Below, in pieces: positions 2,223 through 51,300 of a DNA stretch of 64,000 nt. The translations under genes were made by a program, and so were the position numbers. The notes beneath the pieces are model-generated. The model had not been told where the DNA came from. It made no database searches and saw only the letters and a program-made list of their open reading frames with translations. Origin of the DNA: Multifurca ochricompacta (taxonomy: Eukaryota; Basidiomycota; Agaricomycetes; Russulales; Russulaceae); NCBI GenBank assembly GCA_022496185.1, contig WTXG01000104.1, forward strand, positions 62,001 to 126,000, written 5' to 3'. Every line of letters begins with the position of its first letter. Position 1 is the first letter of the stretch.

Positions 2223-2532
2223 TGTTGGAAGTGCAGCCATAGCATGCAATCAATTGATACCAGAGATGGTGGCCCGAGTCTGATCACTACCATATCAACG
2301 CAATGCAATATTCAGAGCATGCAGGTCATGCAATTTTCCTTTATCATAAAGACTCAGTAGCATAGTTAGAAACCTCAGTCTTTCTATTCCAAAGACTGAG
2401 GTCAGTACTCTCTGTGTTACAGCTACATTATTACTTTACTGATTCATTGTGTAGCTACGCATTTATAGGTATTAACAAATCATATAGTCTTTCTATTCCA
2501 AAGACTGAGCTACACATTTATAGCTCGCTACA
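2223..2532 (+). repeat. COP1 5' LTR
   Basis: Starts TGTTGGAAGTG, ends CTCGCTACA, 310 bp. It has a TATA-like TATCATAAA at 2342 and a predicted start 37 nt further at 2379. It differs from the 3' LTR at about a dozen sites, all of them C/T or G/A changes that can be derived from ancestral CpG. Confidence 0.95.
2373..2523 (+). promoter_or_regulatory. COP1 LTR start region: hairpin, GT-AG segment and its intron-less copy
   Basis: Exon-like e1 is 2379-2400. A GT-AG segment, 2401-2454 (54 nt, GTCAGT...TGTGTAG, branch-like CTGAT 16 nt before its end), separates it from e2 2455-2468. A 19-nt linker 2469-2487 follows. Then e1 is repeated exactly at 2488-2509 and joined directly to e2' at 2510-2523 (one CpG difference). 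An 11-bp hairpin (2373-2383 with 2391-2401) spans the e1/GT boundary. The same layout occurs at 8475-8619 in the 3' LTR. Confidence 0.85.
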
Positions 2533-7089: not shown

Positions 7090-7783
7090 ATTGATAAGAT
7101 CAAAAACACGTTCACAATTAATTAGATACTTAGGATATACATCTAAGTGATAAGATCAAAAATGTGTTCACAGTTAATTAGATACTTGGGATATACATCT
7201 AATACAAGTGATAAGATCAAAATGCGTTCACAATTAATTAGATACTTGGGATGTACATCTAAGTGATAAGATCAAAAATGCATTCACATTTAATTAGATA
7301 CTTAGGATATACATCTAATACAAGTGATAAGATCAAAAATGCGTTCACAATTAATTAGATACTTAGGATGTACATCTAAGTGATAAGATCAAAAACGCGT
7401 TCACAATTAATTAGATACTTAGGATGTACATCTAAGTGATAAGATCAAAATGCGTTCACAATTAATTAGATACTTAGGATGTACATCTAAGTGATAAGAT
7501 CAAAATGCGTTCACAATTAATTAGATACTTGGGATATACATCTAAGTGATAAGATCAAAAATGCATTCACATTTAATTAGATACTTAGGATATACATCTA
7601 ATACAAGTGATAAGATCAAAAATGTGTTCACAATTAATTAGATACTTGGGATGTACATCTAAGTGATAAGATCAAAAATGCGTTCACAATTAATTAGATA
7701 CTAAAGATATACATCTAAGATAATACAAGTGATAAGATCAAAACGCATTCACAATTAAATAGATACAAGTGATAAAATCAATT
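7090..7783 (+). repeat. Minisatellite of about 12 units, 55-61 bp
   Basis: Repeat core GTGATAAGATCAAAAATGCG then TTCACAATTAATTAGATACT and GGATATACATCTAA. Some units carry an extra TACAA, giving two length classes. The unit resembles the COP2 LTR around 2190-2222 and 8634-8645 (TTCATAATTAGCTAGATTAC...ATACATCTAAGAT). It therefore looks like a tandemly amplified piece of a COP2-type LTR captured inside hAT-3. Confidence 0.9.
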
Positions 7784-8318: not shown

Positions 8319-8628
8319 TGTTGGAAGTGCAGCCATAGCACACAATCAATTGATACCGGAGATGGCGGCCCGAGTCCGATCACTACCGTATCAACACAAC
8401 ACAATATTCAGAGCATGCGGGTCGTGCAATTTTCCTTTATCATAAAGACTCAGTAGCATAGTTAGAAACCTCAGTCTTTCTATTCCAAAGACTGAGGTCA
8501 GTACTCTCTGTGTTACAGCTACATTATTACTTTACTGATTCATTGTGTAGCTACACATTTATAGGTATTAACAAATCATATAGTCTTTCTATTCCAAAGA
8601 CTGAGCTATGCATTTATAGCTCGCTACA
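8319..8628 (+). repeat. COP1 3' LTR
   Basis: 310 bp, preceded by the purine tract AAGGGGGCA (8310-8318). Same length as the 5' LTR with no indels. The differences are CpG-type transitions. Contains the second instance of the hairpin/intron/intron-less-copy layout (e1 8475-8496, GT-AG segment 8497-8550, copy 8584-8619). Confidence 0.95.
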
Positions 8629-8862
8629 TATACATCTAAGATCGGGCATGTGATCAAATCACATCAATAACAAGATAACACACTCGTATAATTAAGTAGC
8701 CGATATAGTACATTAAATTGTATATAAACTACTGTATAACTGCTATAGATTAAGCAGTTGCTATCACATTAACGACTGCATCTAAGTCTCAAAGTAAAAC
8801 AAAGGTGAGATAGCTAGCAGTAATGTAGTATCTAGTGTAGGCTGCACCATACCTGTTCTATA

Positions 8863-8877
8863 GGTTATGGGCCCTGG
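8863..8877 (+). promoter_or_regulatory. COP2 primer binding site (half tRNA-iMet)
   Basis: GGTTATGGGCCCTGG starts at the first base after the LTR and is identical to the COP3 site. It is complementary to the initiator tRNA-Met anticodon arm (CCCAUAACC), the copia-type internal tRNA priming mode. Confidence 0.85.
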
Positions 8878-8886
8878 TGGGCATCT

Positions 8887-9106
8887 TGCGCCTTTATGGC
8901 TGCAATACACACTCTGTGCCTTTAATGGCTGCAATAAACATTTTCTGCGCCTTCAATGGCTGTGATAAGTGTCTGCGCCTATATGGCTGCAAAAGTAGAT
9001 GCTACCAGTGAATGCAACGTTCATGCGCCTTTATGGCTGCACTGCTAATGTGCCTTTAAGGCTGCATAAAAACTACTAAGCTCACCATTGCACCTTTATG
9101 GCCGCA
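8887..9106 (+). repeat. COP2 leader: seven dispersed copies of a 17-18 bp motif
   Basis: TGCGCCTTTATGGCTGCA and close variants occur near 8887, 8915, 8946, 8972, 9023, 9048 and 9089, separated by irregular spacers, all in one orientation between primer site and gag. Variants differ mostly at single positions while the GCC...GGCTGC core is kept. Role unknown; RNA packaging or dimerisation, or a bound protein, are possibilities. The rest of 8634-9237 is leader without a gene. Confidence 0.85.
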
Positions 9107-9237
9107 TCTATGGTTTCTAAGAGCCTGAGTTCTGTTTTGTGCTCTGAGTATCTTTTGTCGCATTCAATGCTGACTATGGCTTCTTTTACAGAAACCATTT
9201 ACTCACGCTTCCAAAAACACTTACTCAAATCTTAACA

Positions 9238-10716
9238 ATGTCGTCTCAACTGACAATTGCCGTTCCTGTCTTTGATGGATCTAACTATTCCGCTTGGGCC
9301 AATGTGATGAGGGCTTTCCTTATGTCTAGTGGGCTTTGGGAGGTCATGAATGGCTCCGACCCTTGTCCTAATGCCAAGGATGAACAGAACCCTACTGAAG
9401 ATGAAAAATTACTTCAGAAGGAATGGGACCGCGCTGATAACAAGGCGATCAGCACTATAATCTTGAGGCTGTCCACTGCGATCCAGCATGAACATACCTC
9501 AACTGGCTCTTCCTTTCTTATATGGATCAGTCTAAAGAGCAAGTATGGCTCAGTGGGGCCCGCTGCAATCTTTAGGGACTTCAAAGAAGCCCTAAACTTT
9601 CGCCTGGACTCTGCCAAGCACCCCTTGCCTCAGATTAACCACCTTGAGGTTGCCTTTGAGCGCCTTGAGACCAATAGTGTCACCATCCCTGATGTCTTGC
9701 AGGGCATGCTCCTGCTCCATACGCTCCCTCCCAAATGGGAGGCCCTTATCCCCACCATCCTTGTTGGAAGATCTCCTTCCAACATTAATCTAGCCGTAAT
9801 CCGCAATGCCGTGCTTGCTCAGTGGGAGCAAGATTGATCCAGGGGTAAGAACCCTCATGCAGCTAATAAGCTCTCGGCAATCAAATGGAAGCAGGGTGAC
9901 CCTCGCTTTAATCAGCAGAAACACTTTGGTGGCAAGCAGCCAGAGCAAGCGGAGAAACAGTCGGATCAGAAATTCCAGCATGGGTGCTGTGCCGGGAAGA
10001 AGTACAGAGATAATCAGCAGTCCAAGGGACAGCAGCATTCTCACATCGCCAATCAGGCATTCTTCCCTCCTCCTCATCTCATGACCACACCATCCATTCC
10101 CTCACCTCCTGTGTTTAAATCTCATTACAGGAATGGAAGGCCTCGCATCGTGATGTGTACCACACCTAAGGAGTGGATCCCTGGCCGCTATCAAGCGTTT
10201 AACCAAGCCTTGGATCTGTGTGACAATATAGGTGTGCCAGGGACCTCTCGTAACATTAAACTGCTTGAGGCCCACATCACTGACCAATTCTCAAGAGCGT
10301 CATCCAGTAAGACCAAACTGGAGGACCTTGAAGAGGATGGAGATGAGCTGCCCTGCAAGAAAACCAGATCCCCCTCACCTATCGACATTGATTCAGAAGA
10401 CGAGGAGGAGGACCCCAATAATCCTCTGGATTGGGGTTCTGATCATCTTGATGATCAGTTGGCTGATCTGGCTGGTCTAGACGAGGATGACGATCAAGAT
10501 GTGTATGTCCCTCCTTTCCTTCTACCCTGCAAAGCTCATAGACGCATTTATGCTTCTTTAGTTTGTGCTTCTAGGGAACCCCCTATTGAGAGCCGTTGTT
10601 ATGCAGGAGTAAACAGCACAGTACATGACTTTAGGTCATGTACCAATATATTTGAGTTGCGGCATAATTGCCTGTGTGCTAAATGTAAAGGAAAGACTAC
10701 AGACGATAGCCATATA
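9238..10716 (+). pseudogene. COP2 gag and gag-protease linker
   Basis: Starts MSSQLTIAVPVFDGSNYSAW, a typical copia gag opening. One in-frame TGA at 9835, then the same frame continues through a basic/glutamine stretch, an acidic run (SEDEEEDPNN, DEDDDQD) and a cysteine pair CLCAKCKG just before the TC-1 insertion at 10717. It resumes at 12329 in the protease. Inactive. Confidence 0.85.
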
Positions 10717-12326
10717 CAGTAGCCCACAAAACCATTCCAATGTTTGGCCACCCTGAAGAGATTGACCTACCACACAATGAGAATAATTTCCAAAATTAGT
10801 AGAAATTAGTAGATGACAGTGTAGCATCTAAGCTTCAATTACAGCCTATAATAATGTCAATTGGATCAGTGGTTCATGATATATAAAATGTTTTGTGAGG
10901 CATTATCATTGGAACGGTTTTGTGGCCAACATGTGAGATGACAAAACCGGTATCTGGTGGTCATGGGAATGCATTGACAGTCATGTGACAATGTTTAATA
11001 AGTTGAACACACACCAAATAATCATCAAGAACACTTGCTTCTTACCATGCATGCCCTCTCTGCTGCCAAAAGGACTCACATCATCTCCCTCCTCACTTCA
11101 GGCAAATCTGCCCATAAAGTGTCAACTATGACTGGCCATGGCACTATTATCATCTCAAGATGGGTCATAAATACTGCCCTTACCATCCCAAGTCAAATGG
11201 AGGGAGACCAAGGAAGCTGACAGAGAGAAATGCTCAGCATGCTGTTTGCCTTATCTCCTCTGGCAGGGCAGACACAGATGTGGAAGTGACTAGAGCACTT
11301 CAGAAGTTGTTAATGGGTTCCTCTATCAACATAATATGCCCATCCATCCTCCCATCAAGTTTTCAAGCCATAACTGGCCCCTCCCATATCATACACCCCC
11401 ATTCCATCATAAGTGCAATAGGCCACAAAACCAATCCAATGACATTGTTACACAAAACATTTTATATATCATGAACCACTGACCCAATTGACATCAGTAT
11501 AGGCTCTAAGTGACACTTAGATGATACAATATCATCTACCAATTTCTACTAATTTTGGAAATTATTCCTATGGTGTGGTTGGTCAATCTCTTCAGGATGG
11601 TTAAACATTGGAATGGTTTTGTGGGTTACTGTATGATGGAATGGGGGTGTATGATATGGGAGGGGCCAGTTATGGCTTGAAAACTTGATGGGAGGATGGA
11701 TGGGCATATTATGTTGATAGAGGAACCCATTAACAACTTCTGAAGTGCTCTAGTCACTTCCACATCTGTGTCTGCCCTGCCAGAGGAGATAAGGCAAACA
11801 GCATGCTGAGCATTTCTCTCTGTCAGCTTCCTTGGTCTCCCTCCATTTGACTTGGGATGGTAAGGGCAGTATTTATGACCCATCTTGAGATGATAATAGT
11901 GCCATGGCCAGTCATAGTTGACACTTTATGGGCAGATTTGCCTGAAGTGAGGAGGGAGATGATGTGAGTCCTTTTGGCAGCAGAGAGGGCATGCATGGTA
12001 AGAAGCAAGTGTTCTTGATGATTATTTGGTGTGTGTTCAACTTATTAAACATTGTCACATGACTGTCAATGCATTCCCATGACCACCAGATACCGGTTTT
12101 GTCATCTCACATGTTGGCCACAAAACCGTTCCAATGATAATGCCTCACAAAACATTTTATATATCATGAACCACTGATCCAATTGACATTATTATAGGCT
12201 GTAATTGAAGCTTAGATGCTACACTGTCATCTACTAATTTCTACTAATTTTGGAAATTATTCTCATTGTGTGGTAGGTCAATCTCTTCAGGGTGGCCAAA
12301 CATTGGAACGGTTTTGTGGGCTACTG
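10717..12326. mobile_element. TC-1: palindromic (fold-back) Tc1/mariner element, 1610 bp
   Basis: Ends CAGTAGCCCACAAAACC and its inverse, with TA duplication (10715-10716, 12327-12328). Arms of equal length, 694 bp (10717-11410 and 11633-12326), are near-perfect inverted copies. Each encodes the same N-terminal Tc1-type helix-turn-helix fragment (LSAAKRTHIISLLTSGKSAH...ISRWVI), on + at 11035-11220 and on - at 11823-12008. The 222-bp centre is another copy of the ~210-bp terminal region. No DDE catalytic region, so non-autonomous. Confidence 0.9.
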
Positions 12327-12328
12327 TA

Positions 12329-15300
12329 ACATGGCTCTTAGATTCAGGTGCTTCATTGCACTTTACCTTTTCTCTCGACAATTTCATTGAGTATGAGGAC
12401 ATGGCGAACCCTGAGCCTGTTAAAACGGCTTCTAAGCCAATCTATATCAAAGGGAAGGGTACAGTTCTACTAGAACATGATGTCACATACAATGGAGTCA
12501 CTAGAACGCGCACTACACGCTTATATCCAGTATATTACATTCCTGATATTACTGGGAGACTCCTGAGTGTCAGAGAATTTCTTAAGCAAGGGCTGAATGT
12601 CTATGGGGACGAACACCAATTAACCTTGCGCAATAAGGGATCCAAAGTCCCTGTTATTCAATGCCATCCGGCGATTCCTGGCCAAACTATCTATTGGCTT
12701 CATTCTAAGATCGCAAATTTATGATCTTACTCCACAATCTACACTGTAGATTATGATCAAATGCATAAGTGCCTAGGACATCCTTCAAAGGAAGTCTTAC
12801 GTCATGCCAAAGATCACACTAAGGGATTCCCCCGAGATCTATCTTATCTGAAGACAGCTCCCTTATGCCCGGGATGTGCACAAGGCAAGATGCCTTCACA
12901 ATCTTATCTCCCGTCTGAAACATGTGCCTCAAAGCCATTTGAGCACATTCATTCAGATCTGAAGATCTTCCTGGTAGAATCTTATCATAAATACAAATAT
13001 TTTATCAGCTTTATTGATGATTATATGTCATTCACGTGGATTGTCTGTTTGTGCACTAAGTCTGCTGCAATAAATGCTTTGCGACAATTCCTTGCCATGA
13101 TCAAAAATCAACATAACACCACCATTAAAGAGTGGATGTCTGATGCTGGTGGCAAATACAAGTCTGATGTATTTATGAATGTACTAAAAGATGAAGGGAT
13201 AAAAATCCTACAGAGCATGCCTCATACTCCCCAACAAAACGGCTGTGCAGAGTGCTTCATGCGCACTTGTATGGATAAAGCACAATTGATGCGCATTGAG
13301 TCATGTCTTCCAGACTCTTGGTGGGAATTTGCTGTATTGCATGTGGTGCATCTCTACAATAGGACTCCTGTACATCGCCTGAAATGGCAGACACCTTATG
13401 AAAAAATACATGGAGAGGCACCAGAGATATCTCATTTGCATGTCTTTGGATGTGGTGTGTATGTCTACATTCCTGAAGAATGTCGCAGCAATAAACTAGC
13501 ACCTAAGTCAGAACTTATGGTGTACATTGGGCAGGCAGATGGCATTAAAGGCCATCTGTTCATGAGGCTTAGCAATAATCAATTATACACACAAGCTACA
13601 GCCCTCTTTGATGAGAATCTCTTCCCTAAGTGTGATTCCACCAGACAGCGTGGAGTTACAAAACTGAATGAGCCTCTACATACTGAAGGGCTGGATACAC
13701 AGCCCATTCCTTTAGTGGACGATGATGATTTCCTACCATCTTGCCTTCCACCTTCCAAACAAATAGAAGGACCTCAGGTTCTTGACGAAGAACCTAGCGC
13801 TTCACAGCCAGAGGTACCCTTGCCTTCTCCTGTGCCAGAACAACAACCAGTGCCTTTGCGGTGCTCTACACGGGAAAGGAAAGTTGCACTTCACCCTGGG
13901 AATGTCTATGGGGATAACAGGCACCCTGTTGATCAGATTACAGACATTCAGTGGATGCGGCAATGGAGACGAGCAGTGGAACCTCGGGGTAGCTCCCCAA
14001 TTCCATCCGCGCGTTTGAGACAGGTTCCTGGTCCTAGTCTCGACACTCCAGCCTGCACTAGCGATGATCCGCTTACACCCATAAGGGGGAGTGATGATGA
14101 AGTTGAGGATCTAGTAGATCTCATATCTCAACTAGCCCAGGAAGGGGGAGGAGAATTTGTGAATTATCTGCTCGCCAAAGCAGTTCCACATGATTCACAG
14201 CCACTAGACATGTCCAATATATGAGAGTGGACATATAGAGATATTTTGTGCATGCCTGACGCGCAACAAAAGGAATGGAAGACTGCCTGTCATGATGAAC
14301 TTGAGGCACTTTGCAGATGGAATGTCTTTACACTTGTGGACCCTCCCAAAGGGAGGAAGACAATAAAAAACAGATGGGTCTTTGACCAAAAATCTGATGG
14401 TCGTAAGAAAGCTAGGCTTGTTGCCAAAGGCTTTTCTCAGGTTGAAGGCATTGACTTTAATGAAATATTCTCGCCTGTTGTAAGGTTTGAGACTGTCCAG
14501 TTGATGCTTGTGCTTGCAGCGCTTGAGGATTGGCACATCACTGGATTAGATGTCAAAAGCACTTTCCTGTATGGTGAACTAGATGAAGAGCTATACATGG
14601 AACAACCTGAAGGTTTCAAAATTAAAGGACAAGAAACCAAAGTGCTACGACTACAATGCGCCATTTATGGTCTTAAACAAGCTGCCTTAGCATGGTGGAA
14701 GGTGCTGGATAAATCCATGGCAGCGATGGGCTGTAAATGCCTACTCTCAGACTCAGGCCTATTTCTATATAAGGCTAATAATGGGTCAATTGTCATCATC
14801 ATTGTATATGTCGATGATGCGTTATTTATGGGAAATGACAAAGTCCTAGTCAGAAAATTAAAAACTGACTTTATGAACAAATGGGAGTGCAGGGATCTAG
14901 GAGATACAAAGGAGTTCTTGCGAATGCACATAACTAGGAAGGATGGCAAAATTCTACTTGATCAACAGCCATACCTAACTAAAGTGCTGCAACAGTTTGG
15001 GATGCTCAACGCAAAATTTGCGCCCACTCCTCTCCCAGAAGGCTATCATCCAGAGCCTAACACTGAACCTGCCAATCCTTCCATTCATTCAAAGTTCCAA
15101 CAAGTAATCAGCTCATTACTTTACATTATGTTGGACACGTGACCAGATATTGCCTTTGCAGTGACAAGGCTATCTCAATTTGCCGCTAATCCATCTCAAG
15201 ATCATCTTGATCGAGCACTGTATATCTGCCGATATTTAGCTGGCACATCCGATTACACGCTTATCTACAATGGCAGATCAAATGGCGGATTGATCGCATG

Positions 15301-15438
15301 CACTGATTCTGATTGGGCGTCAAACCCAATAGATCACCAATCTACTACTGGATATATGGTGAAAATAGCAAATGGGATATTCAGCTGGAATTCTAGAGCG
15401 CAAAAGACCACAGCGCTCTCATCCACTGAAGCAGAATA
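12329..15438 (+). pseudogene. COP2 pol: protease, integrase, RT, start of RNase H
   Basis: One frame with TGA stops at 12722, 14222 and 15140. Protease TWLLDSGASLHFT (intact DSGA) near 12331. Pre-integrase MHKCLGHPSKE...CPGCAQGK. Integrase D at FIDDYMSF, then SDAGGKYKSDV and HTPQQNGCAE. RT KNRWVFDQKSDGRKKARLVA, VKSTFLYGELDEELYMEQP and YVDDALFMG near 14809. RNase H CTDSDWASNP and STEAEYSA. Stops replace expected arginine codons (for example LDT*PDIAF for T-R-P-D), consistent with CGA to TGA. TC-2 interrupts after STEAEYSA. Confidence 0.9.
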
Positions 15439-17060
15439 CAGTGCCTCACAAAACTGAGTCAATGTTTTGCACTTTTGCACTGTTTGTTGAATATCACATC
15501 AGCCAAAACAAATATAAACAAAGTCTTGGTAGACCATAAAAGGTACAAGATAAGGGTTATGTAATGCAACAATGATTATGTAATTCTGATCAAAACCTGT
15601 GGAGCTATGCCCATTTCAAATTGGGGACTCATTGACTCAGTTTTGTGAGTGGGTATCAGAAATATCAGAATCTGATGCTCCATCAAATGTACAGCAACCA
15701 ATCCTTAATATATGGTTACCATAGTTGTCTTGATATTGATGGGACATGGAATAGAGCTATTTAACCATGGTTTACATTCCCAGAATATTATAATTTCCCA
15801 ATGCACCCCACCTCCTCTGCTCAGAAAGAAAACATGCACTCTCTGGCCTCTGAAGGTCATTCCACTGACACTATTGCCTCCAGACTCAGCCTCAGCCAGT
15901 CCACAGTCTCTAGGACACTCAGAACCCTCCTTCCCAACCATCAGTCACCTCATTTTGGTCATCTTTCCAAGCTCTCTGCTACCTCTGAACATGCTATCAT
16001 GATACAAATCACCACAGGAAAGGTTGGCAATGCTGTCCAGGCCACAAAGCACATCAATTCCATCATCCCCAACCATGTCTCTTCACAAACTGTGCACTGG
16101 GTTCTTAAATGACATTCATTCAAGGCTGTAACAAAGAAGAAAAGGCCACTACTCTCTGCAGTACATTGCAAGAAGCACTTAGCCTTTGCTTTGAAGTACC
16201 AAAACTGGACTGTGGAGGACTGGCATCTGACCCAAACCTGTTGATTTTGGTCTCATCTGACCAAATGACCCTCTTGCAGTCCTCCACAGTCCAGTTTTGG
16301 TACTTCAAAGCAAAGGCTAAGTGCTTCTTGCAATGTACTGCAGAGAGTAGTGGCCTTTTCTTCTTTGTTACAGCCTTGAATGAATGTCATTTAAGAACCC
16401 AGTGCACAGTTTGTGAAGAGACATGGTTGGGGATGATGGAATTGATGTGCTTTGTGGCCTGGACAGCATTGCCAACCTTTCCTGTGGTGATTTGTATCAT
16501 GATAGCATGTTCAGAGGTAGCAGAGAGCTTGGAAAGATGACCAAAATGAGGTGACTGATGGTTGGGAAGGAGGGTTCTGAGTGTCCTAGAGACTGTGGAC
16601 TGGCTGAGGCTGAGTCTGGAGGCAATAGTGTCAGTGGAATGACCTTCAGAGGCCAGAGAGTGCATGTTTTCTTTCTGAGCAGAGGAGGTGGGGTGCATTG
16701 GGAAATTATAATATTCTGGGAATGTAAACCATGGTTAAATAGCTCTATTCCATGTCCCATCAATATCAAGACAACTATGGTAACCATATATTAAGGATTG
16801 GTTGCTGTACATTTGATGGAGCATCAGATTCTGATATTTCTGATACCCACTCACAAAACTGAGTCAATGAGTCCCCAATTTGAAATGGGCATAGCTCCAC
16901 AGGTTTTGATCAGAATTACATAATCATTGTTGCATTACATAACCCTTATCTTGTACCTTTTATGGTCTACCAAGACTTTGTTTATATTTGTTTTGGCTGA
17001 TGTGATATTCAACAAACAGTGCAAAAGTGCAAAACATTGACTCAGTTTTGTGAGGCACTG
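15439..17060. mobile_element. TC-2: palindromic (fold-back) Tc1/mariner element, 1622 bp
   Basis: Ends CAGTGCCTCACAAAACTGAG and inverse, TA duplication at 15437-15438 and 17061-17062. Arms 783 bp each (15439-16221, 16278-17060), 56-bp spacer. Both arms encode the same Tc1 helix-turn-helix domain (IASRLSLSQSTVSRTLR; + 15801-16112, - 16387-16698). The minus strand through the spacer reads WTVEDCKRVIWSDETKINRF, the first-aspartate region of the DDE domain. Arms carry direct repeats of the terminal motif (ACTCACAAAACTGAGTCAATG-like, near 15629 and 16850). Confidence 0.9.
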
Positions 17061-17062
17061 TA

Positions 17063-17387
17063 CATGTCGCTTTCTGACACAATGCGACAGATTGTATGGA
17101 TCAAATCGCTTCTAAGCGAAATTGGCATTGATCTAGGACCTGTTCCCCTCTGCAGTGATAACCAAGGCTCCATCTTTATGGCCTCTAATCCTGTACAAGA
17201 GTGATGGATAAAACATATTGATATCCGCTTCCACTACATTAGACAAATTGTACAGGAGAAGAAAATCGAGCTATTCTTTATAGAAGGCTCTGAAAATCCC
17301 ACAGACATGTTCACCAAGAATTTGGGACGCATCAAATTCCTGAAATTCAGGAGTCAACTTGGGCTAGAGATTAACTCGCCTAAGTAG
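17063..17387 (+). pseudogene. COP2 RNase H C-terminus
   Basis: Continues the frame after TC-2: MSLSDTMRQIVWIKSLLSEI, SDNQGSIFMASNP, then TGA 17202 where RSKHIDIR is usual, KHIDIRFHYIRQIV, NPTDMFTKNLGR and stop TAG 17385. These are the canonical copia C-terminal motifs. Confidence 0.88.
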
Positions 17388-17434
17388 GGATAATTGCTTA
17401 GCATGCTTAGCAGCGGCACTTAGCAAGGGGGAGT

Positions 17435-17780
17435 GTTGAACCAAGATACCGGTACAGAGGCTCCGGGATAGCAGTACAACATGATTGTGATCACGTGTAG
17501 ATAACACAAGTAAGAATGCATTCATAATTAGCTAGATTACTTAGAATATACATCTAAGATCGGGCATGTGATCAAATCACATCAATAACGAGATAACGCA
17601 CTCGTATAATTAAGTAGCCGATATAGTACATTAAATTGTATATAAACTACTGTATAACTGCTATAGATTAAGCAGTTGCTATCGCATTAATGACTGCATC
17701 TAAGTCTCAAAGTAAAACAAAAGTGAGATAGCTAGCAGTAATGTAGTATCTAGTGTAGGCTGCACCATACCTGTTCTATA
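17435..17780 (+). repeat. COP2 3' LTR (346 bp)
   Basis: Preceded by purine tract AGCAAGGGGGAG. Starts TGTTGAACC and ends CTGTTCTATA, an atypical TG...TA end confirmed by the adjacent AGTAT duplication and by the same end before the 5' primer site. Differences from the 5' LTR pieces are few and mostly CpG-type transitions. Confidence 0.92.
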
Positions 17781-17785
17781 AGTAT

Positions 17786-17854
17786 TAGTTAGTTTATCTT
17801 ATCTCTTATCTTTACCATATTTAGCTAACACTTATCTGCTATCTAAATAGGTAA
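17786..17854 (+). repeat. COP5 LTR relic, right part
   Basis: Continues the GT-AG-like segment begun at 2097: TATCTTATCTCTTATC..., branch-like GCTAAC, and AATAG followed by GTAAAGATACTATAG. This corresponds to the region up to the linker in COP3's LTR. The intron-less copy expected next is absent and unrelated sequence follows. The exact end is uncertain. Confidence 0.5.
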
Positions 17855-28064: not shown

Positions 28065-28146
28065 GCTAATGTTACAACCCCACTCTTTTCCCTTCCTCAC
28101 ACTGAGCCAGCTCCCTTACACCACCCTTGACCTTTCCCCTTCACTA

Positions 28147-28554
28147 TGTTGAGACGGACCCAAAGCCACCGGATCAACCCGAGTGGCATTACCGCCATGC
28201 ACGCTTGTGGCGTGCTTTGACTGATTGATAAAGGACAATCCACAAACGCTCTTTATTCTCTCTTGTGACTGTAGGACAATGGACTTAGATAGTATTGTTC
28301 TACAAACTAGGATTACACTCTCTTTTAGTATTTAAGGACATCCCTTCGTGTAGTTGTCACTTCAGTTTTAACCAACTAAACTGAAGTGAGTATTACTTAT
28401 CTTATCTCTTACCTTACTTAGTTAACGCGTTACATCACACAGTTATCGCTACTAAACTAGGTAAACATAATATTATTAGTTTTAACCAACTAAACTGAAT
28501 TATCGCTACTAAACTAGGTAGCGCTTATCTAACTCGCTGCTGCTCAAATCGACA
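28147..28554 (+). repeat. COP3 5' LTR
   Basis: TGTTGAGACGG...AAATCGACA, 408 bp. TATTTAAGG at 28329, predicted start 37 nt downstream at 28366. Identical to the 3' LTR at 33015-33422. Confidence 0.97.
28358..28517 (+). promoter_or_regulatory. COP3 LTR start region: hairpin, GT-AG segment and intron-less copy
   Basis: e1 TTTTAACCAACTAAACTGAA (28366-28385); GT-AG segment 28386-28442 (57 nt, GTGAGT...CACACAG, branch-like GTTAAC); e2 TTATCGCTACTAAACTAG (28443-28460); 19-nt linker 28461-28479; then e1 (28480-28499) joined directly to e2 (28500-28517), both exact. Hairpin CACTTCAGTTT/AAACTGAAGTG (28358-28368, 28378-28388) has its 5' arm upstream of e1 and its 3' arm over the e1/GT donor. The same layout occurs at 33226-33385. 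Confidence 0.9.
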
Positions 28555-28569
28555 GGTTATGGGCCCTGG
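28555..28569 (+). promoter_or_regulatory. COP3 primer binding site (half tRNA-iMet)
   Basis: GGTTATGGGCCCTGG abuts the LTR and is complementary to the initiator tRNA-Met anticodon arm, as in copia. Confidence 0.9.
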
Positions 28570-28943
28570 CCGTATCTAATCTAATCCAGAAGAAGATCCA
28601 CCCAAGATTACACAAGCTCCCTTCCCCTATACACGCACTGTTTTTCTCTCACTCAAAAGGCGAGCCTCTGTTCCATGTCTATCACGATCTCATCTCCCCA
28701 GTCCCTGGAACTGGTGGACTGATGTAGACTGGGCCCCTAATCAGGGCTTCCCACGAGCCGTGCGATGGAGCGTGGCGACGCTGAAGCACGTGTGAGTACT
28801 CTCTCGGGCCCTTTGACGGACCGAGAGGCTGGATCCTTAGTGGATTCAGGGCGCACAGTTGATACATCAGAGATCGATCGGATCTTCACTATCTGGGTCT
28901 AACTGCTCCGCTCACCCAGATTGGCAAATTACTAAGCAGCACT
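28570..28943 (+). other. COP3 leader
   Basis: Untranslated region between primer site and gag-pol ATG. No repeat or competing long frame. The ATG at 28944 is preceded by GCAGCACT. Confidence 0.7.
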
Positions 28944-31900
28944 ATGGCCCCCTCTTTTTCCTTTCCCCCTTCTGCCGCGATCGAGGTCCTTGACGGATCT
29001 AACTGGTCCACTTGGTCATCACGCATGATGGCCCTGTTCCGAATGAACGGCGTCCGAGATCATCTAACCGAAGACAAGCCCAGCACACCCTCAGCCGACT
29101 GGAACACCTTAGAAGGTGTTCTCCAAGGCATTCTTGAACTTTACACTCAGAAGGATGTCTGGCAGACCGTCTCGGACGACAAATTATATGCCACCTGCAA
29201 GGACAAGTGGGACCAGCTCAAGAAAGTATACGGAGGCGTCAGATCCATGTCCGCGTTCAACACATGGGTCGCGCTCACTAGCACAGCGCTCGACGACTCG
29301 TCTCCAATGCTTCCTCAGTTGCAGAAGTTAAACGATGCACGCGTTACTCTCAAAAATAATGAGATGGAGATTTCAGATCTCCAATTTTGCTTCATCCTCA
29401 TCAAGGCGCTGCCGGACTCATACTCGGCGGTCGCGTCTACCATCTTAGCTACCGGAGCACCGGTGGACCTTTCCCCACTAACCATACAAGAGCGAATCAT
29501 AAATGAGGAAGGTCGACGGTCCGGTTCCTCCGCCGCACTCAACAAGTCCGCGCCCGTCAAAAAGCCTGATAACAAAGACAAGAAGGCTACAAAATGCTTC
29601 TACTGTCAGAAAAAGGGGCATCGGATTTCCGAGTGCAGGAAGAAAAAGAAGGATGAGGAGGACAAAAAGGCAGCAGAGTCCGGGCAAAACAAGGCAGTTA
29701 ACGCACATCTAGCCACAACATCGGCATCTATTGTAGAAGTTACCGATGACACTAATGATATCCGCGTTTCTTTGTATGCTGCCGCCCGATCTCGCTGGAT
29801 GATGGACTCCGGCGCAACGCATCACATAACCCCGCACCGATCTGACTTCACAGAGTATGCACCCATGAACGGGACTGTCCGCCTAGGCGACAACTCCAAC
29901 GTCAAACAAATCGGTGTCGGGAAGGTGGTCTTCAAAACCACTCTTGGGAGTCGAGATTCTGAGGTTACCCTGAATAACGTTCTTCACATTCCAGATGTTC
30001 GGACGCGCTTCATCTCTACGCGCGCTCTTGCACAAAGGGGTGCTCAGATCTCATTCACTGATAAGTTTTTCACTATCACGGTACAAAACCGGAAAATCGC
30101 GCAAGGGTACCTGGAGGACAACCTCTATTGGCTGGATGCCTCCATCTCCGCCCTTCACGCGCACACGCACACGCACACGTCTCATCCTATCGACCTTTGG
30201 CATCGCCGTATGGGGCACATGTCTTACAACGCCCTCAAACGGTATCATTCTTCCGTAAAAGGAATCTCGCTTGATGCTTCGATCGTCTCCGACCAGTCGC
30301 CATGTTCCGGGTGTGAATTTGGGAAACAGTCGCGGCTACCCTTTTCGGTCTCTCACAAGCGCTCGGATCGGCGTCTACAAATCGTTCACAGCGATCTAGC
30401 CGGCCCGATGCAGAAACAGTCTCTCCAAGGCGCGCTTTACATCGCAACGTTTGTCGATGACTATTCCAGACATGGGGTAGTGTACTTTCTCCGAAGCAAA
30501 GATCAGCTTGCCGCCGCGTTCAAAAAGTTCCTCTCCTGGGCTGAGACCCAGACGACTGAGAAACTGCTTACGCTGCATTCTGACCGCGGGGGGGAGTTCT
30601 TATCAGGCGCCGTGAGAACTGTACTGGACCAAAAGGGGATCGAACATAAGCTAACGATGCCAGGTTCGCCGCAACAAAACGGCATAGCTGAGCGATGGAA
30701 TCGGACCATCATGGACAAAGCGCGGGCGATGCTACATGGCGCCGGCTTGTCCCTCGGCTTCTGGGAGCTGGCAGTGGATACTGCCGTTCACACTTACAAT
30801 AGGACTCCCAGCAGAACGATAGGTTGGCGCACGCCGCATGAGCTCTGGAGTGGTGGTCACGCTCCGGATGTCTCATATTTCCGAGTCTTTGGCTGTAAGG
30901 CATATGTACACGTGCCTGAGAACAAGCGTAAGAAGCTCGATCCGCGATCGGTCGAGATGACGCTTGTAGGGTATGAGCCGGGTTCTAAGGGTTACCGGTT
31001 CTGGAATCGACATACCCAATCAATAGCTCTGTCACGCGATGTAGCGTTCGACGAGAGTTCCTTTCCTTTTCGGGAGAGCAGCCAGCCGTCTGCCTCGCCC
31101 GCACAACCCCCGGTCCTTGAAGGACCACTGGCCGTCACTGTCCCCACGTCCTCCGCTATCCCAGCAATCGCTTCCGGAGTGGCCGCTCCGCCAAGGACGC
31201 CATCTCCACCAGCTACCCCACAACGCCTTTCAGGTCCTGAACCCGAAGTCTTAGACGCTTCCCCCACTTATGCACCCACTTCCCGTATTCTCCAGTCCCG
31301 ACGTCGCGCAGACTCCACCTCGGAGGATCTCCCGCGGCTGCGGCCAAACCCTCGGCGAAACCCTCGTTACTACAACGAGGACAATGCCGCACTTGATGCA
31401 AACGGGAGACTGGGTCACACGGCACTTCTCGCAGCTGCCGCTTATCACGATCCGTTGACTTTTCGGGAGGCTATGAACTCGGAGTTCGCCGATGAATGGC
31501 AAGATGCCTGTCAATATGAGATCGACGCGCTTGCCAAGAACGGCACCTGGACCTTGGTCGATTTACCCGCGGGCCGGAAACCCGTCAAATCTAAATGGGT
31601 ATTCAAGCGCAAAGCCGATGGACGCTTTCGCGCGCGTTTGGTAGCTAAGGGATTTACGCAGATACAGGGGATTGATTACGATGAAACCTTCTCACCAGTT
31701 GCCCGGTTTGAGTCGTTGAGACTCTTGCTAGCGTTGGCCGCGCTAGAGGATTGGGAGATCCATCAAATGGACGTCAAGTCGGCGTTCCTTAACGGGTTAC
31801 TGGATGAAGAGATCTATATGGAGCAACCACAAGGTTTCATCAGCTCCGGCCAGGAGAACAAGGTTTGTCTCCTCAAAAAGGCAATTTACGGCCTCAAGCA

Positions 31901-32987
31901 AGCCTCACGCGCATGGAACTTACAATTCCATGGAGTTCTATTGGAGCTCGGCTTCACGCGCACCTACTCCGATGCGGGAGTTTACGTGTTTCATCGCCAA
32001 GACGGGGAGGGTACAGTAATTATCATCCTCTATGTCGATGACATCACACTTCTAGGCGACTCTGCCCAAGAGATAACCAAGATCAAGTCCACATTATCTA
32101 AGCGCTATGATATGACAGACTTAGGCGAAATCGACTCTTATCTCGGAGTCCGGATCACTCGCAATCGTTCACTCAAACGCTTGGACATTGACCAATCAAG
32201 GTACATCTTAGAGATCGTCGAACGCTTTGGGATGGCGGATGCGAACCCCGCACGCACTCCACTTCCCGCTGGTGCTGAGGCACACCTGGTAAAGCACACT
32301 GCGCAGGCAACACCCTCTGAAATCAAGCAATACCAGCAGATCATAGGCAGTCTCCTGTACGTGCAAATCGGGACTCGCCCAGACATTTCTTTTGCAGTCG
32401 CGCGGCTAGCTCAGTATGCCGCAAACCCTTCACCCCAACACCTCCGTCTTGCCAAGTACGTTCTCGCCTACCTCAAAGGTACAGCAGACCTTCGGCTTCG
32501 CTACGATGGAGCGCGCGGAGATGGCCTTGTTGGCTACTCGGACTCTAGTCTTGGAGACGACGCAGACGACTACCATTCCACCTCGGGCTACGTTTTCCTT
32601 CTCGCCGATGCCGCTATCTCTTGGACATCACGCAAGCAGAAGACAGTGGCTCAAAGCACCACACACGCCGAATACATGGCGATGGCCGACGCGGCCAACC
32701 AAGCCGCCTGGTACCGCAGTTTCCTCTCGGAGATCGGCTACGACGTTTCCGATCCGATTCCCTTACACGGCGACAACAAAGGCGCTGTCGACTTGGCGCT
32801 CAATCCCGTGACCGGGAGACGATCAAAACATATCTCCATCAAGTATCATGCAATCCGCGAATACGTCGAAAAAGGCTTCATTACTCTTATCAGGACGCCG
32901 ACCAATGACATGCTCGCTGATGGTTTTACTAAGCCGCACGCTCACGTGCAGCTCACTGATTTTGTCACCGGATTAGGTTTACTCTGA
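28944..32987 (+). CDS. COP3 gag-pol polyprotein, intact
   Basis: 1347 residues, within the usual copia range. Gag (UBN2-like) to ~215; CCHC knuckle CFYCQKKGHRISEC ~217; protease MMDSGATHH ~287; pre-integrase HRRMGHMSYN...CSGCEFGKQ ~420-455; integrase catalytic D in HSDLAGPM ~481, DDYSRHGV, HSDRGGEF ~546, SPQQNGIAERWN with catalytic E; RT KSKWVFKRKADGRF, QMDVKSAFLNG ~941, ILYVDDITLLGD ~1029; RNase H SDSSLGDD ~1199, STTHAEY, DNKGAVDL, KHISIKYHAIREYV. All catalytic residues present, no stop or shift. Start chosen as the first ATG (MAPSFSFPPS) before IEVLDGSNWSTW. Translated as one polyprotein and cleaved by its own protease (family knowledge). Confidence 0.98.
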   Translation: MAPSFSFPPSAAIEVLDGSNWSTWSSRMMALFRMNGVRDHLTEDKPSTPSADWNTLEGVLQGILELYTQKDVWQTVSDDKLYATCKDKWDQLKKVYGGVRSMSAFNTWVALTSTALDDSSPMLPQLQKLNDARVTLKNNEMEISDLQFCFILIKALPDSYSAVASTILATGAPVDLSPLTIQERIINEEGRRSGSSAALNKSAPVKKPDNKDKKATKCFYCQKKGHRISECRKKKKDEEDKKAAESGQNKAVNAHLATTSASIVEVTDDTNDIRVSLYAAARSRWMMDSGATHHITPHRSDFTEYAPMNGTVRLGDNSNVKQIGVGKVVFKTTLGSRDSEVTLNNVLHIPDVRTRFISTRALAQRGAQISFTDKFFTITVQNRKIAQGYLEDNLYWLDASISALHAHTHTHTSHPIDLWHRRMGHMSYNALKRYHSSVKGISLDASIVSDQSPCSGCEFGKQSRLPFSVSHKRSDRRLQIVHSDLAGPMQKQSLQGALYIATFVDDYSRHGVVYFLRSKDQLAAAFKKFLSWAETQTTEKLLTLHSDRGGEFLSGAVRTVLDQKGIEHKLTMPGSPQQNGIAERWNRTIMDKARAMLHGAGLSLGFWELAVDTAVHTYNRTPSRTIGWRTPHELWSGGHAPDVSYFRVFGCKAYVHVPENKRKKLDPRSVEMTLVGYEPGSKGYRFWNRHTQSIALSRDVAFDESSFPFRESSQPSASPAQPPVLEGPLAVTVPTSSAIPAIASGVAAPPRTPSPPATPQRLSGPEPEVLDASPTYAPTSRILQSRRRADSTSEDLPRLRPNPRRNPRYYNEDNAALDANGRLGHTALLAAAAYHDPLTFREAMNSEFADEWQDACQYEIDALAKNGTWTLVDLPAGRKPVKSKWVFKRKADGRFRARLVAKGFTQIQGIDYDETFSPVARFESLRLLLALAALEDWEIHQMDVKSAFLNGLLDEEIYMEQPQGFISSGQENKVCLLKKAIYGLKQASRAWNLQFHGVLLELGFTRTYSDAGVYVFHRQDGEGTVIIILYVDDITLLGDSAQEITKIKSTLSKRYDMTDLGEIDSYLGVRITRNRSLKRLDIDQSRYILEIVERFGMADANPARTPLPAGAEAHLVKHTAQATPSEIKQYQQIIGSLLYVQIGTRPDISFAVARLAQYAANPSPQHLRLAKYVLAYLKGTADLRLRYDGARGDGLVGYSDSSLGDDADDYHSTSGYVFLLADAAISWTSRKQKTVAQSTTHAEYMAMADAANQAAWYRSFLSEIGYDVSDPIPLHGDNKGAVDLALNPVTGRRSKHISIKYHAIREYVEKGFITLIRTPTNDMLADGFTKPHAHVQLTDFVTGLGLL

Positions 32988-33014: not shown

Positions 33015-33422
33015 TGTTGAGACGGACCCAAAGCCACCGGATCAACCCGAGTGGCATTACCGCCATGCACGCTTGTGGCGTGCTTTGACTGATTGATAAA
33101 GGACAATCCACAAACGCTCTTTATTCTCTCTTGTGACTGTAGGACAATGGACTTAGATAGTATTGTTCTACAAACTAGGATTACACTCTCTTTTAGTATT
33201 TAAGGACATCCCTTCGTGTAGTTGTCACTTCAGTTTTAACCAACTAAACTGAAGTGAGTATTACTTATCTTATCTCTTACCTTACTTAGTTAACGCGTTA
33301 CATCACACAGTTATCGCTACTAAACTAGGTAAACATAATATTATTAGTTTTAACCAACTAAACTGAATTATCGCTACTAAACTAGGTAGCGCTTATCTAA
33401 CTCGCTGCTGCTCAAATCGACA
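33015..33422 (+). repeat. COP3 3' LTR
   Basis: 408 bp, no difference from the 5' LTR found by eye. Preceded by CACGGGGGAA purine tract. Confidence 0.97.
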
Positions 33423-34594
33423 CACTAAACCACTGTCTCCTGCCCTCTTTGGCCCCTGATCCCTGATGCCCTTGGTATGCTGCCTTGGGACCTTCTTGAT
33501 GCCTGTGGCCTGTGTGCCCAGGACCTTACCCTGATGCCTGTGACCTGTTGCTCACAGGACCAACCTCCCTTGCCACCATTTACACCTAACCTGATGGTAG
33601 TTCTGCTGCTATACTATTGGATGTACATCACCCTTCCTTATTGCCTTGGCTTATGCCTTGGCCAGTACCCCTGTCCCTGTGCTTGACACCCATAGGATCT
33701 CTGACACTGTCCCTGCCAAACCTGACTCTGCACACAAGACAACTTTGGCTTGCATTTGCCCCTCCAGACCACATGACCTGTAGGCACATGACATGGACTC
33801 AAAGCCATGACCTATCATGTGACCCCCTTTGACCATGTGACCTTGGGCTTTGATCATGACCCCTTAGATCATCTGACCCATCAGTCACTTGACCCTCTTC
33901 TCTGATTCCTGTGGGAGTATTCCCACACTGATCTGACTCCTGTGGGACCTGTTATCTCCCCATTTACCCCTGACCCTGGTGGGAATCCTCCCACACTGAT
34001 ATGACTCCTGTTGGGCTGTCCCACATGATTATGCTTCTGATAAGGCTTATCCTTATCATGGACTATATTTGACATCTTATCTGCTATTGGATGATAAGGA
34101 CTCTGACCCTGTTCCTGATTAGCTACAAACCAGATCCCCATACAGTATATAAGACCCTGTAGACAGTTTGTACAACCCCAGATTTGACCTCTTGTGCCTT
34201 CAGCCTAGAGATCTTAGACCTCAATACATCAGAAGCCTTTTCCCCCTCTTTTGCGTCCTTGAGATCCCTGCAGGGACCCCCATTGCCTCTGGCAATGGGT
34301 GTGTACCCTTCCCTTTGAACCCCTTTGCCATCTCCTAGGGCTCCAGTGTGCTCAGTGCATTTCCGGCACAGCAACTGGGCCCTGTCTCCACTTAACAGCC
34401 TTAGGGGATTAGCTCCCTTTGGCTGGCTCATCCCGTCTCCCTCTGTGCTTGATTATAGCACCAAACCTTAACCGATCCCAAAGCTAAACAGTGCCCAGAG
34501 TCTAGCCTTATCGTGCTAGGCTCATGGCTGAGGTAATGGACCCGCGCCGACCCATGCACGCCGCACAGAACGCTCCGCTGAGTGTAACAGCTAA

Positions 34595-40128: not shown

Positions 40129-40434
40129 TGTAAGAGCTAGAAAAGCAAGTAGCTCAGTCTTTGGAACAGAAAGACTATATTGCTAGGTAATACCTAGAAA
40201 AGTGAGTAGCTACACAGAGAATTAGTTAAAGGCAATGTAGCTATAAAATGAATGATACTGACCTCAGTCTTTGGAACAGAAAGACTGAGGACACTAACTA
40301 TGCAAATAGTCCTATAATAAAGTAAGAAATTTGCACAATACCTCATGCATTGTGTAGAATGGCCTCAATATGATCAATCCCAGGCCGCCATCTCTGGTAT
40401 CAATATGGCTGCATGCTGTGGCTGTATTCTAACA
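40129..40434 (-). repeat. COP4 3' LTR (306 bp)
   Basis: Plus strand TGTAAGAGCTAG...GTATTCTAACA. Minus strand begins TGTTAGAATACAGCC, like COP1's TGTTGGAAGTGCAGCC. Confidence 0.92.
40137..40290 (-). promoter_or_regulatory. COP4 LTR start region: hairpin, GT-AG segment and intron-less copy
   Basis: Minus strand: e1 40284-40263, GT-AG segment 40262-40210 (53 nt, GTCAGT...TGTGTAG with branch-like TTAACTAAT), e2 40209-40194, 19-nt linker 40193-40175, then e1 copy 40174-40153 joined to e2 copy 40152-40137. The e1 units are identical to each other and differ from COP1's e1 by one base (CTG for CTA in the loop) in both copies. The e2 copies differ only as CA versus TG. Confidence 0.88.
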
Positions 40435-41345: not shown

Positions 41346-41859
41346 TGTTGACACAAGACGTGTCTGGAGATGCTTCAGGCATCTAAGGATCGCTTTAGCT
41401 GTAGATAAGATTAGATTAGGTTCCGGAGTTTCGGACTTTTTATGTTATCTTTATTACATTTCTTTCTCACCTTACTCAGCTGATTAGTGATGGACTTAGT
41501 AATGCGCAGTAAGCATGTGATATCTCTTTGGCCAATGGCCTTTATCCCTCTCTGTTTATTGTCTGGCACTTGTGGACTTATTCCCAGTGCGCACAGACCA
41601 TTTCCCCTGGCCCCTATGGGTATATAAGGGTGTCTGTTTCATCTCTTCCACTTCAGAGTTCTTCTAACCTCTGAAGTGTAAGTTCCCTTTACTCTACTCT
41701 CTCACTACCTATAGACTAACCTATTATATTAGACTTGTCTTTCTTTAGGTGTGTAGATAGTAATAATAGAGTTCTTCTAACCTCTGAAGTACTTGTCTTT
41801 CTTTAGCCTAACCCGCTACTAACCGCAGTCAGTATAACCAGCAGCATGATTGTTTGACA
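41346..41859 (+). repeat. Solo copia-type LTR (514 bp) with intron/intron-less copy layout
   Basis: TGTTGACACAAGACG...TGTTTGACA, TSD CCTCC at 41341-41345 and 41860-41864. TATATAAGG at 41621; 36 nt on, e1 41657-41677; GT-AG segment 41678-41732 (55 nt, GTAAGT...ATATTAG, branch point GACTAACC); e2 41733-41748; 21-nt linker 41749-41769; then exact e1 41770-41790 joined to exact e2 41791-41806. Hairpin CACTTCAGAG/CTCTGAAGTG over the donor side of e1. Confidence 0.92.
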
Positions 41860-48389: not shown

Positions 48390-51300
48390 ATGGTATGGCC
48401 TACATTCGGGCACTAGTCTTGCAACATGTATATAGATCCCCACTGAAAGCAATGAAGATCTTTGTCCCCATACATGGTGTGAAGAAAGAGGCCAGCATAG
48501 AAGCACTTGTTGATAGCAGTGCCACAGAAAACTTCATAAGTTTTCAAACAGTTATCAAACATAGACTCCCCACAAAACAATTAACCATCCCAAAACAACT
48601 ACAGAATGTGGATGGCTCTCCAAATGTGACCCGCGACATCCGACAATGTGTTGATCTCATGATTACTACAGATAACAAAATGCAACAACATCGGTTCTAT
48701 ATCACATCTATTGGAGCCGATGATATGATCTTAGGGTACCCATGGTTCATGGCTAATAATCCAAGTATAGATTGGTCACAAGGATGTTTACAAGAATCGA
48801 TCACAATTCAAGTACCACATGAACAGATCAAATGCGTGAATATTGCACAAGAACTAGCGATCAAGGCAAAAGATACCACCGAATGGACATGGGACCAAGT
48901 AGTACCCAAAGAATATCATCGCCACCAGAAGGTTTTCAGTGACCAAGAAGCCCAACATTTTCCTGCAGAACGACCCTGGGATCACAAAATCGAACTAAAA
49001 TCAGATGCACCTGCAACATTAGATTGCAAGATCTACCCACTTGGTCCAGGTGAACAGGACACGTTACACAAATTCCTCGAAGAACACCTACAAAAGGGTT
49101 ACATCACAGAATCGAAGTCACCCTATGCATCCCCATTTTTCTTTATTAAAAAGAAGGACAGGAAGTTGTGCCCAGTCCAAGACTATCGCAAGCTCAACAA
49201 CTGGACCATTTGCAACACTTATCCACTTCCCCTCATCCCAGAACTTATTGATCGTGTAAGAGGAAGTACACTGTTCACTAAGATGGATGTCCGGTGGGGC
49301 TACAACAACGTCCGCATCGTCCTGGAGGATCGATGGAAAGCTGCATTCAAGACAAATCGCGGACTCTATGAACCCAACATTATGTTTTTCGGCTTAACTA
49401 ATTCCCCTGCAACCTTCCAAACAATGATGAATGCGAAATTCTGTGCAGAACTCAATGAACATGATGCCTCAGGAAAAGCCTGGTTTACCATATATACAGT
49501 GGGTCAAAAAACTGTCCCAATGTTTGCACCATTTCTAGTATTCACTCTATAGCACCTCAGCATTTAGGAATCTGGTTATGGTGTGGCTGTATGTCTGAAA
49601 GCCCTGCGTCCTGGCTACCATGCCCAATTTGGATCAAAGAGATTGGCCATGATATAAGCATTTTATGATCAAATCAAATCAATCAATCATTGGGATGGTT
49701 TTTTGACCCACATTTTAAATCCACTATCTGCCCAATTACTACTTTTTTTCACCCCTTTTTGCCTTGGTAACTCCTTGAATCCTTTTAGTCATCCTTTCTA
49801 TAACCTTTTGCCATCATTCTGGTGCATTTTTATTCCACTCCTCCACCACCCTCTCCCACAACTCAGGTATCCCCTTGACTGGTTAAGAACCTTCTTCAGA
49901 TCCACCCAGAGGTGTCCAATGGGGCTAATATTTCAAGGGATTGGGCTATCCATACCAGGCTTCAATATTCCTGTCTTAAAACTGCTGGCTTGCCTTCTTG
50001 GAATTGTGTTTTGGGTCATTGTCCCACTGAAACATGCTTTCACCCTCCACCATTTCTTACTTTTCAAACCTTTCCACCACTCTGCCATCCAAAATATCAC
50101 AGTACTGGCATGGATTCATGATCCCCTAAACCCCTGTAAGCATTCCTAGTCCATTCCACCCCATACAAGACCAATACCATAAGTTCTTCCTCCTCCATGC
50201 TTGACTGTCAGGGTGGTGGTTCTGTCAGAGAGTGGTTACCATGAAAATTGGACAGTGGATGACTGGAAAAGGATCCTGTGGTCAGGTGAGACTATAATGA
50301 ACAGAATTGGTTCAGACAGAAGGAGCTACACTTGGGAAAAATAAGGGAGAACCACCCTCTGACAGAACCACCACCCTGACAGTCAAGCATGGAGGAGGAA
50401 GAACTTATGGTATTGGTCTTGTATGGGGTGGAATGGACTAGGAATGCTTACAGGGGTTTAGGGGATCATGAATCCATGCCAGTACTGTGATATTTTGGAT
50501 GGCAGAGTGGTGGAAAGGTTTGAAAAGTAAGAAATGGTGGAGGGTGAAAGCATGTTTCAGTGGGACAATGACCCAAAACACAATTCCAAGAAGGCAAGCC
50601 AGCAGTTTTAAGACAGGAATATTGAAGCCTGGTATGGATAGCCCAATCCCTTGAAATATTAGCCCCATTGGACACCTCTGGGTGGATCTGAAGAAGGTTC
50701 TTAACCAGTCAAGGGGATACCTGAGTTGTGGGAGAGGGTGGTGGAGGAGTGGAATAAAAATGCACCAGAATGATGGCAAAAGGTTATAGAAAGGATGACT
50801 AAAAGGATTCAAGGAGTTACCAAGGCAAAAAGGGGTGAAAAAAAGTAGTAATTGGGCAGATAGTGGATTTAAAATGTGGGTCAAAAAACCGTCCCAATGA
50901 TTGATTGATTTGATTTGATCATAAAATGCTTATATCATGGCCAATCTCTTTGATCCAAATTGGGCATGGTAGCCAGGACGCAGGGCTTTCAGACATACAG
51001 CCACACCATAACCAGATTCCTAAATGCTGAGGTGCTATAGAGTGAATACTAGAAATGGTGCAAACATTGGGACAGTTTTTTGACCCACTGTATGGACAAT
51101 ATTCTAATTCACACCAATCATGATCTCACCAACCACCGCTCCAAAGTCCATCACGTCTTAGATAAGCTCAGCAAATTGGATCTCTATCTCAAGCCTGAAA
51201 AATGCACATTTGAACAAACGTGAATAGAATACCTCGGTTTGATTCTCGAAGGAAATCAGGTGCATATGGATCCAGTAAAAGTAGAAGGAGTTGCCTCTTG

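Follow-up and report, generated by a model that had tools for sequence, protein, structure and literature searches.

A copia element and the layout of its LTR

Within the window, by which we mean the whole 64,000-nt stretch analysed, lies COP3, a retroelement bounded by two LTRs of identical sequence that begin with TG and end with CA, and flanked by a 5-nt target-site duplication, CACTA (28142–28146 and 33423–33427). Its single frame (28863–32984) encodes gag_2 (111–223), rve (506–603) and RVT_2 (893–1134). Judged by gene order, with integrase before reverse transcriptase, and by its LTR ends and target duplication, COP3 is a Ty1/copia element; paired TG..CA LTRs and a 5-nt duplication were both found in COP3, the only element so checked. 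The 5′ LTR is directly followed by GGTTATGGGCCCTG, a putative primer-binding site of the half-tRNA type that would pair with the anticodon arm of the initiator tRNA-Met. The parts of COP3 named below are as follows.

28147–28554, forward strand: COP3 5′ LTR, 408 nt, TG..CA, boundaries set from the flanks
28329–28336, forward strand: TATA-like box, 35 nt 5′ of e1, found by eye
28357–28363, forward strand: U3 hairpin arm TCACTTC, before the presumed start, its partner being the last bases of e1 together with the donor
28364–28385, forward strand: e1, its first A being the presumed RNA 5′ end
28386–28442, forward strand: proposed intron A, GTGAGT..CACAG, 57 nt
28443–28460, forward strand: e2
28461–28517, forward strand: proposed intron B, GTAAAC..CTAG, 57 nt, made up of linker, e1′ and e2′
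28461–28477, forward strand: linker
28477, forward strand: hypervariable base, proposed strand-transfer junction
28478–28517, forward strand: e1′e2′ (e1′ 28478–28499, e2′ 28500–28517), pre-spliced copy and proposed landing site
28555–28568, forward strand: putative primer-binding site
33015–33422, forward strand: COP3 3′ LTR
33232–33385, forward strand: parts of the 3′ LTR, with e1 33232–33253, intron A 33254–33310, e2 33311–33328, and linker plus e1′e2′ 33329–33385

The initial annotation had described e1, a GT..AG segment, e2 and a linker followed by a second, uninterrupted e1e2 (here e1′e2′) in COP3, COP1, COP4 and a solo LTR. On re-reading the sequence we found this layout in all of them, with GT..AG segments of 57, 54, 53 and 55 nt and donors GTGAGT, GTCAGT, GTCAGT and GTAAGT, respectively, just as it had reported. 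The further LTRs of the window are listed here, together with a COP3-like LTR whose continuation at 17779 ends abruptly after the linker.

2377–2523, forward strand: COP1 5′ LTR, with e1 2377–2400, intron A 2401–2454, e2 2455–2468, and linker plus e1′e2′ 2469–2523
8473–8619, forward strand: COP1 3′ LTR, with e1 8473–8496, intron A 8497–8550, e2 8551–8564, and linker plus e1′e2′ 8565–8619
40137–40286, reverse strand: COP4 LTR, with e1 40286–40263, intron A 40262–40210, e2 40209–40194, and linker plus e1′e2′ 40193–40137
41621, forward strand: TATATAAG of the solo LTR
41655–41806, forward strand: solo LTR, with e1 41655–41677, intron A 41678–41732, e2 41733–41748, and linker plus e1′e2′ 41749–41806
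2074–2105 and 17779–17844: COP3-like LTR whose e1 is of another type (AGTTTTGACCACATAAACTGAA), interrupted by nested insertions that have GTATT at either side

The second copy, said to be exact throughout, is exact in both COP3 LTRs and in the solo LTR and departs from the first in COP1 (one mismatch between e2 and e2′ in the 5′ LTR, two in the 3′ LTR) and in COP4 (two mismatches between e2 and e2′). Likewise, the AG that had been taken to close every linker, at a length of 19–21 nt, belongs to the start of e1′, and the linkers are 17–20 nt long. With a tandem array at ~6.9–7.9 kb set aside, an exact-match scan of the window recovered just three LTRs, the two of COP3 and the solo LTR, COP1 and COP4 having been missed because of their e2 mismatches. 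COP2, a copia element at 8628–17783 with integrase and RT frames at 12725–15139 and LTR parts at 8628–8865 and 17546–17783, shows no such layout either by eye or in the exact scan; thus the layout is seemingly not a feature of every copia family.

The window is otherwise rich in repeats. It holds three long inverted repeats with arms that are 100% complementary (15437–17062, arms of 786 nt; 49494–51093, 744 nt; 10715–12328, 697 nt) and spacers of 54–220 nt, which may be foldback elements or assembly effects, and diverged tandem units at a spacing of 56–116 nt occupy 7047–7738, between the COP1 LTRs, with similar matches in locus L004.

A scan for the layout beyond the window had been set beforehand as a check. 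We scanned 68 loci of the same 53.8-Mb genome, retrieved with the COP3 LTR, an RT domain and the solo LTR, imposing neither donor nor acceptor, and found the layout in 66; the loci without a match were L008, a COP3-family copy, and L023. Among the matches listed, up to three per strand, the excluded segment always opens with GTAAGT or GTGAGT and closes with AG, save for tandem-repeat matches in L004 and a single odd one in L055. Across 20 loci of the COP1 family, the promoter-side landmark was present in 16 and a full parse was possible in 10. Searches of viral_contigs with one RT domain and with an alignment of three RT domains confirmed no relative, and the single relative found in genome_contigs, L155 (4451 nt), showed no such layout.

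The pattern CACTTC-e1-GTAAGT, which covers only the promoter side and first copy of one superfamily, had 1482 matches genome-wide, against 0 for a reversed-pattern control; since these LTRs are related by descent, such counts are not independent. That the layout reflects chance or an assembly artefact, for which only the repeat-rich window speaks, is extremely improbable in view of this contrast and of its absence from 20 dinucleotide shuffles of the window.

Intron-like features of segments A and B

A full parse was obtained for 73 of 88 distinct records, the other 15 being dropped for a locus end, an interruption or a failed match to e1′ or e2. Segment A ends in AG in all 73, although the parser picked that end by matching and not by AG. 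In 59 distinct LTRs, segment A measures 45–57 nt and segment B, the linker plus e1′e2′, 55–60 nt. Near the acceptor, where the initial annotation had also pointed out branch-like motifs, an ACTAAC-like CT(A/G)A(C/T) is present 12–14 nt before the end of segment A in 54 of the 59; in 53 of those 54 no other AG intervenes between this motif and the terminal one, and e2 is free of inner AG in 59/59. At the level of sequence, segment A therefore has the GT donor, branch site and first-AG acceptor of a spliceosomal intron. For comparison with the host, one actin-family gene gave GT..AG candidates in 4/4 gaps, those chosen being 49, 52, 53 and 68 nt (three of the four gaps offer further candidates), and none was found in three gaps of two other host genes.

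Segment B starts with GT and ends with TAG in 59/59 distinct LTRs, and its donor fits GTNNGT in 48, with poor donors in COP1 (GTATTA) and COP3 (GTAAAC). These weak donors would suit an alternative in which only intron A is spliced and the linker with e1′e2′ is trimmed by direct-repeat slippage during reverse transcription. Were A alone removed, however, arrays of e1e2-linker-e1′e2′ should accumulate, and the largest superfamily contains 0 such matches, against 1482 matches to the first copy of its long form; segment B would thus have to be removed too. As GTNNGT at the start of the linker in 48/59 also argues against slippage, we consider removal of A alone unlikely. Loss of both A and B would give the RNA a 5′ end indistinguishable from genomic e1′e2′-U5, so that the e1-e2-linker reads put forward in the initial annotation as proof of splicing would mark only a partly spliced intermediate.

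We also found 40 short LTRs (36 distinct) of the form U3-e1e2-U5, from which segments A and B are both gone; all 40 were read, and none keeps the linker. A primer-binding site lies within 120 nt in 11. We considered these LTRs as fossils of spliced RNA and dropped them as proof because C precedes e1 in 40/40, with 0 non-C forms; they did not, then, arise through a cDNA end with an extra base landing there. A deletion between the two copies of e1 is a simpler source that needs no splicing, and the short LTRs are accordingly no proof of splicing; they have probably, judging from that same base, gone through no further replication cycle since they formed. A stricter U5 pattern is matched by 28/40 short forms, compared with 4 forms lacking segment B only, an excess that is suggestive only.

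Concerted change of the two copies and a variable base at the proposed junction

Using landmarks that ignore the second copy, we assembled 96 records (88 distinct) into 24 clusters, of which 21 representatives had enough sequence; the promoter-side landmark required TC before e1, GTNAGT and short e1 self-pairing, which builds in donor uniformity and some pairing. In 19/21 representatives their own e1 was found again exactly downstream, and in none was the e1 of another type found; the two exceptions are L049, whose copies differ at three positions, and, in the window, the LTR at 2074 that an insertion has divided. A landmark-only parse of 50 AGAG-type LTRs, which comprise 12 e1 types and 17 e2 types, showed full agreement of the two copies in 45, and the remaining five have one or two base differences in one unit. 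Of 21 distinct e1/e2 combinations, 16 have matching copies; shuffling gave 0.86 on average and 6 at most. Even the most variable e2 column of the solo family (C9 G7 A2 T1 in 19 LTRs) has equal composition in e2′.

The claim that unit sequences are family-specific within a conserved architecture is thus borne out, in that e1 and e2 vary between LTRs and the second copy tracks the first within each. Because the copies stay matched across such varied e1 and e2 types, the second copy is apparently re-matched continually to e1 and e2, and on this comparison the pre-spliced copy looks to have been rewritten recurrently, not once. Mismatches between e1 and e1′ occur in L025, L049 and L054. In L054, e1′ has the sequence that serves as e1 in the short form L096, and exceptions of the L054 type could stem from transfer between two different RNAs.

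A single ancestral duplication could instead have been kept alike by selection, whether as a protein- or RNA-binding site or as homology for transfer. The e1 hairpin of the families that were folded and the homology that transfer would require are both in keeping with such selection, but it does not account for copies that remain matched while e2 varies in length and sequence, nor for a junction base that varies among near-identical COP3 elements, and we hold it to be very improbable.

That junction base, immediately before e1′, is the highest-entropy of 235 columns in 29 near-identical COP3 LTRs (T16 C9 A2 G2; 1.53 bits against a column mean of 0.04). It agrees in 10/10 presumed COP3 LTR pairs, taken as same-strand neighbours (eight 4–5 kb apart and two 17–20 kb apart), comprising six T-T, two C-C, one A-A and one G-G. 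In the solo family the same position ranks fourth of 424 columns (C8 T10 A1), and in COP1 it falls outside the top eight. Over the 73 parsed LTRs its composition is T41 C26 A4 G2, and in 100 listed of 472 linkers matching a single pattern it is T67 C21 A8 G4, or A 67, G 21, T 8 and C 4 on the minus strand; among same-strand neighbours 5–8.5 kb apart within those 100, some of which may not be true pairs, the base is the same in 14/17 and different in 3/17. The first e1, by comparison, is preceded by C in 1482 matches and by another base in 1. An untemplated, mostly purine minus-strand base added at the point of strand transfer would leave such a pattern.

A variable base at e1′ is also what would be expected had the RNA simply begun there, with an ordinary junction, no need of splicing, and e1-GT..AG-e2 as an upstream relic or regulatory copy that conversion keeps alike. 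Against such a start, the TATA-like boxes, located by eye, lie 33–35 nt before e1 and about 150 nt before e1′, and the single-copy short LTRs, including the 11/40 with a nearby primer-binding site, keep the TATA–e1 spacing. It would also leave unexplained both the donor, branch and first-AG acceptor of the missing segment and the concerted change of e1 and e2 with e1′e2′; we regard it as quite unlikely. Judged by the junction base the cDNA ends at e1′, and judged by the TATA-like box the RNA begins at e1; splicing would reconcile the two.

A proposed route to intron retention and its relation to known systems

Computed folds of COP1, COP3 and AGAG-type LTRs show a hairpin in which the last U3 bases, those adjoining e1, pair with the end of e1 and into the donor; the COP4 hairpin was inspected by eye only. 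The U3 arm raises the opening energy of the donor by at least 3 in 41/41 distinct LTRs (35 AGAG-type, 5 COP1 and 1 COP3), the mean being 4.9 kcal/mol for the RNA 5′ end, 12.1 once the U3 arm is included and 5.3 when that arm is shuffled, and only 4 of 1230 shuffles reached the opening energy of the LTR's own arm. The mean pairing probability of the donor was alike in the two contexts (0.24 vs 0.26), opening energy alone being different. Given a start at e1, the arm would be missing from the RNA 5′ end and kept in the 3′ LTR, and we therefore propose the hairpin as an end-specific switch: in the modelled fold it could bury the donor in the 3′ LTR only, although this switch is the least certain step of the scheme.

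From the start site through splicing and transfer to this switch, the route we infer is as follows. Transcription would start at the first A of e1, 33–35 nt after the TATA-like box, and introns A and B would be spliced from the RNA 5′ end, giving e1-e2-U5. Reverse transcriptase would copy this leader into minus-strand strong-stop DNA, often with one untemplated base added, and this DNA would anneal to the identical e1′e2′ in the unspliced 3′ LTR and be extended through the linker, e2, intron A, e1 and U3. Because extension would run through an unspliced 3′ LTR, each new LTR would keep both introns, and its e1′e2′ would be overwritten by the spliced e1 and e2 of the parent. Removal of the linker from the leader might also keep putative poly(A) signals of the 5′ LTR unused.

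The sequence data are best accounted for by the proposal of the initial annotation, that a leader intron is spliced from the 5′ end and the cDNA joined to the unspliced 3′ end, with splicing as the step that we infer; to it we add a probable second intron, recurrent rewriting, the junction fingerprint and the proposed switch. We put the probability that in every cycle the cDNA of the spliced 5′ end anneals to the pre-spliced copy, so preserving the intron, at roughly 0.8. The fuller version, a self-perpetuating intron with two micro-introns in R, a landing copy rewritten every cycle and a hairpin that spans the transcription start and hides the donor in the 3′ LTR only, with the same sequence spliced at one RNA end and retained at the other, would in our estimate be an even bet. 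These odds and those of the alternatives are rough and partly overlapping and need not sum to one, and splicing of intron A alone has the central steps of the model in common with it.

A retroelement that is copied via RNA would be expected to lose its introns. If the proposed route is true, an intron is retained in precisely the RNA segment that undergoes reverse transcription, and the problem of making identical LTRs has a new answer, in which the same sequence is processed differently at the two ends. Genomes of this kind would then hold a natural record of strand-transfer junctions and untemplated bases across many insertions, and the annotation of R and U5 in such LTRs would change. Among the literature matches listed, covering titles and abstract openings with most subscription literature outside, we found no precedent for an intron inside an LTR that is rebuilt from spliced RNA.

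In the Ty1/copia group (Ty1, copia and Tnt1), strand transfer to the 3′ LTR uses an R that is identical at both RNA ends. The elements described here share with that group the integrase placed before RVT_2 and, in COP3, the TG..CA LTRs and 5-nt duplication, and on the proposed route also the transfer to the 3′ LTR; they would differ in an R that is spliced at the RNA 5′ end and, at the 3′ end, unspliced and accompanied by a pre-spliced copy. HTLV-1, BLV and spumaviruses have a splice donor in or near R, so that they too have one within the leader derived from the LTR; their packaged genome is unspliced RNA, whereas for the elements described here we propose that reverse transcription acts on the spliced leader. 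The strong-stop DNA of Ty1 and HIV can end with one untemplated base, mostly a minus-strand purine, which here would be visible as a variable base inside the LTRs of many insertions.

The introns of the plant LTR elements Ogre, EVADE and BARE1 are not known to lie inside the LTR; the segment described here does, and we propose that splicing removes it from the reverse-transcribed 5′ end. Natural splicing in those three plant elements makes a subgenomic RNA, and in EVADE it takes out the protease portion (PMC12786077). The same paper recounts the 1985 experiment with an intron-marked Ty, TyH3, in which splicing took place between transcription and cDNA (PMC12786077). As told there, the new Ty copy is intronless, whereas in the LTRs of the window the intron is proposed to be kept by way of the landing copy.
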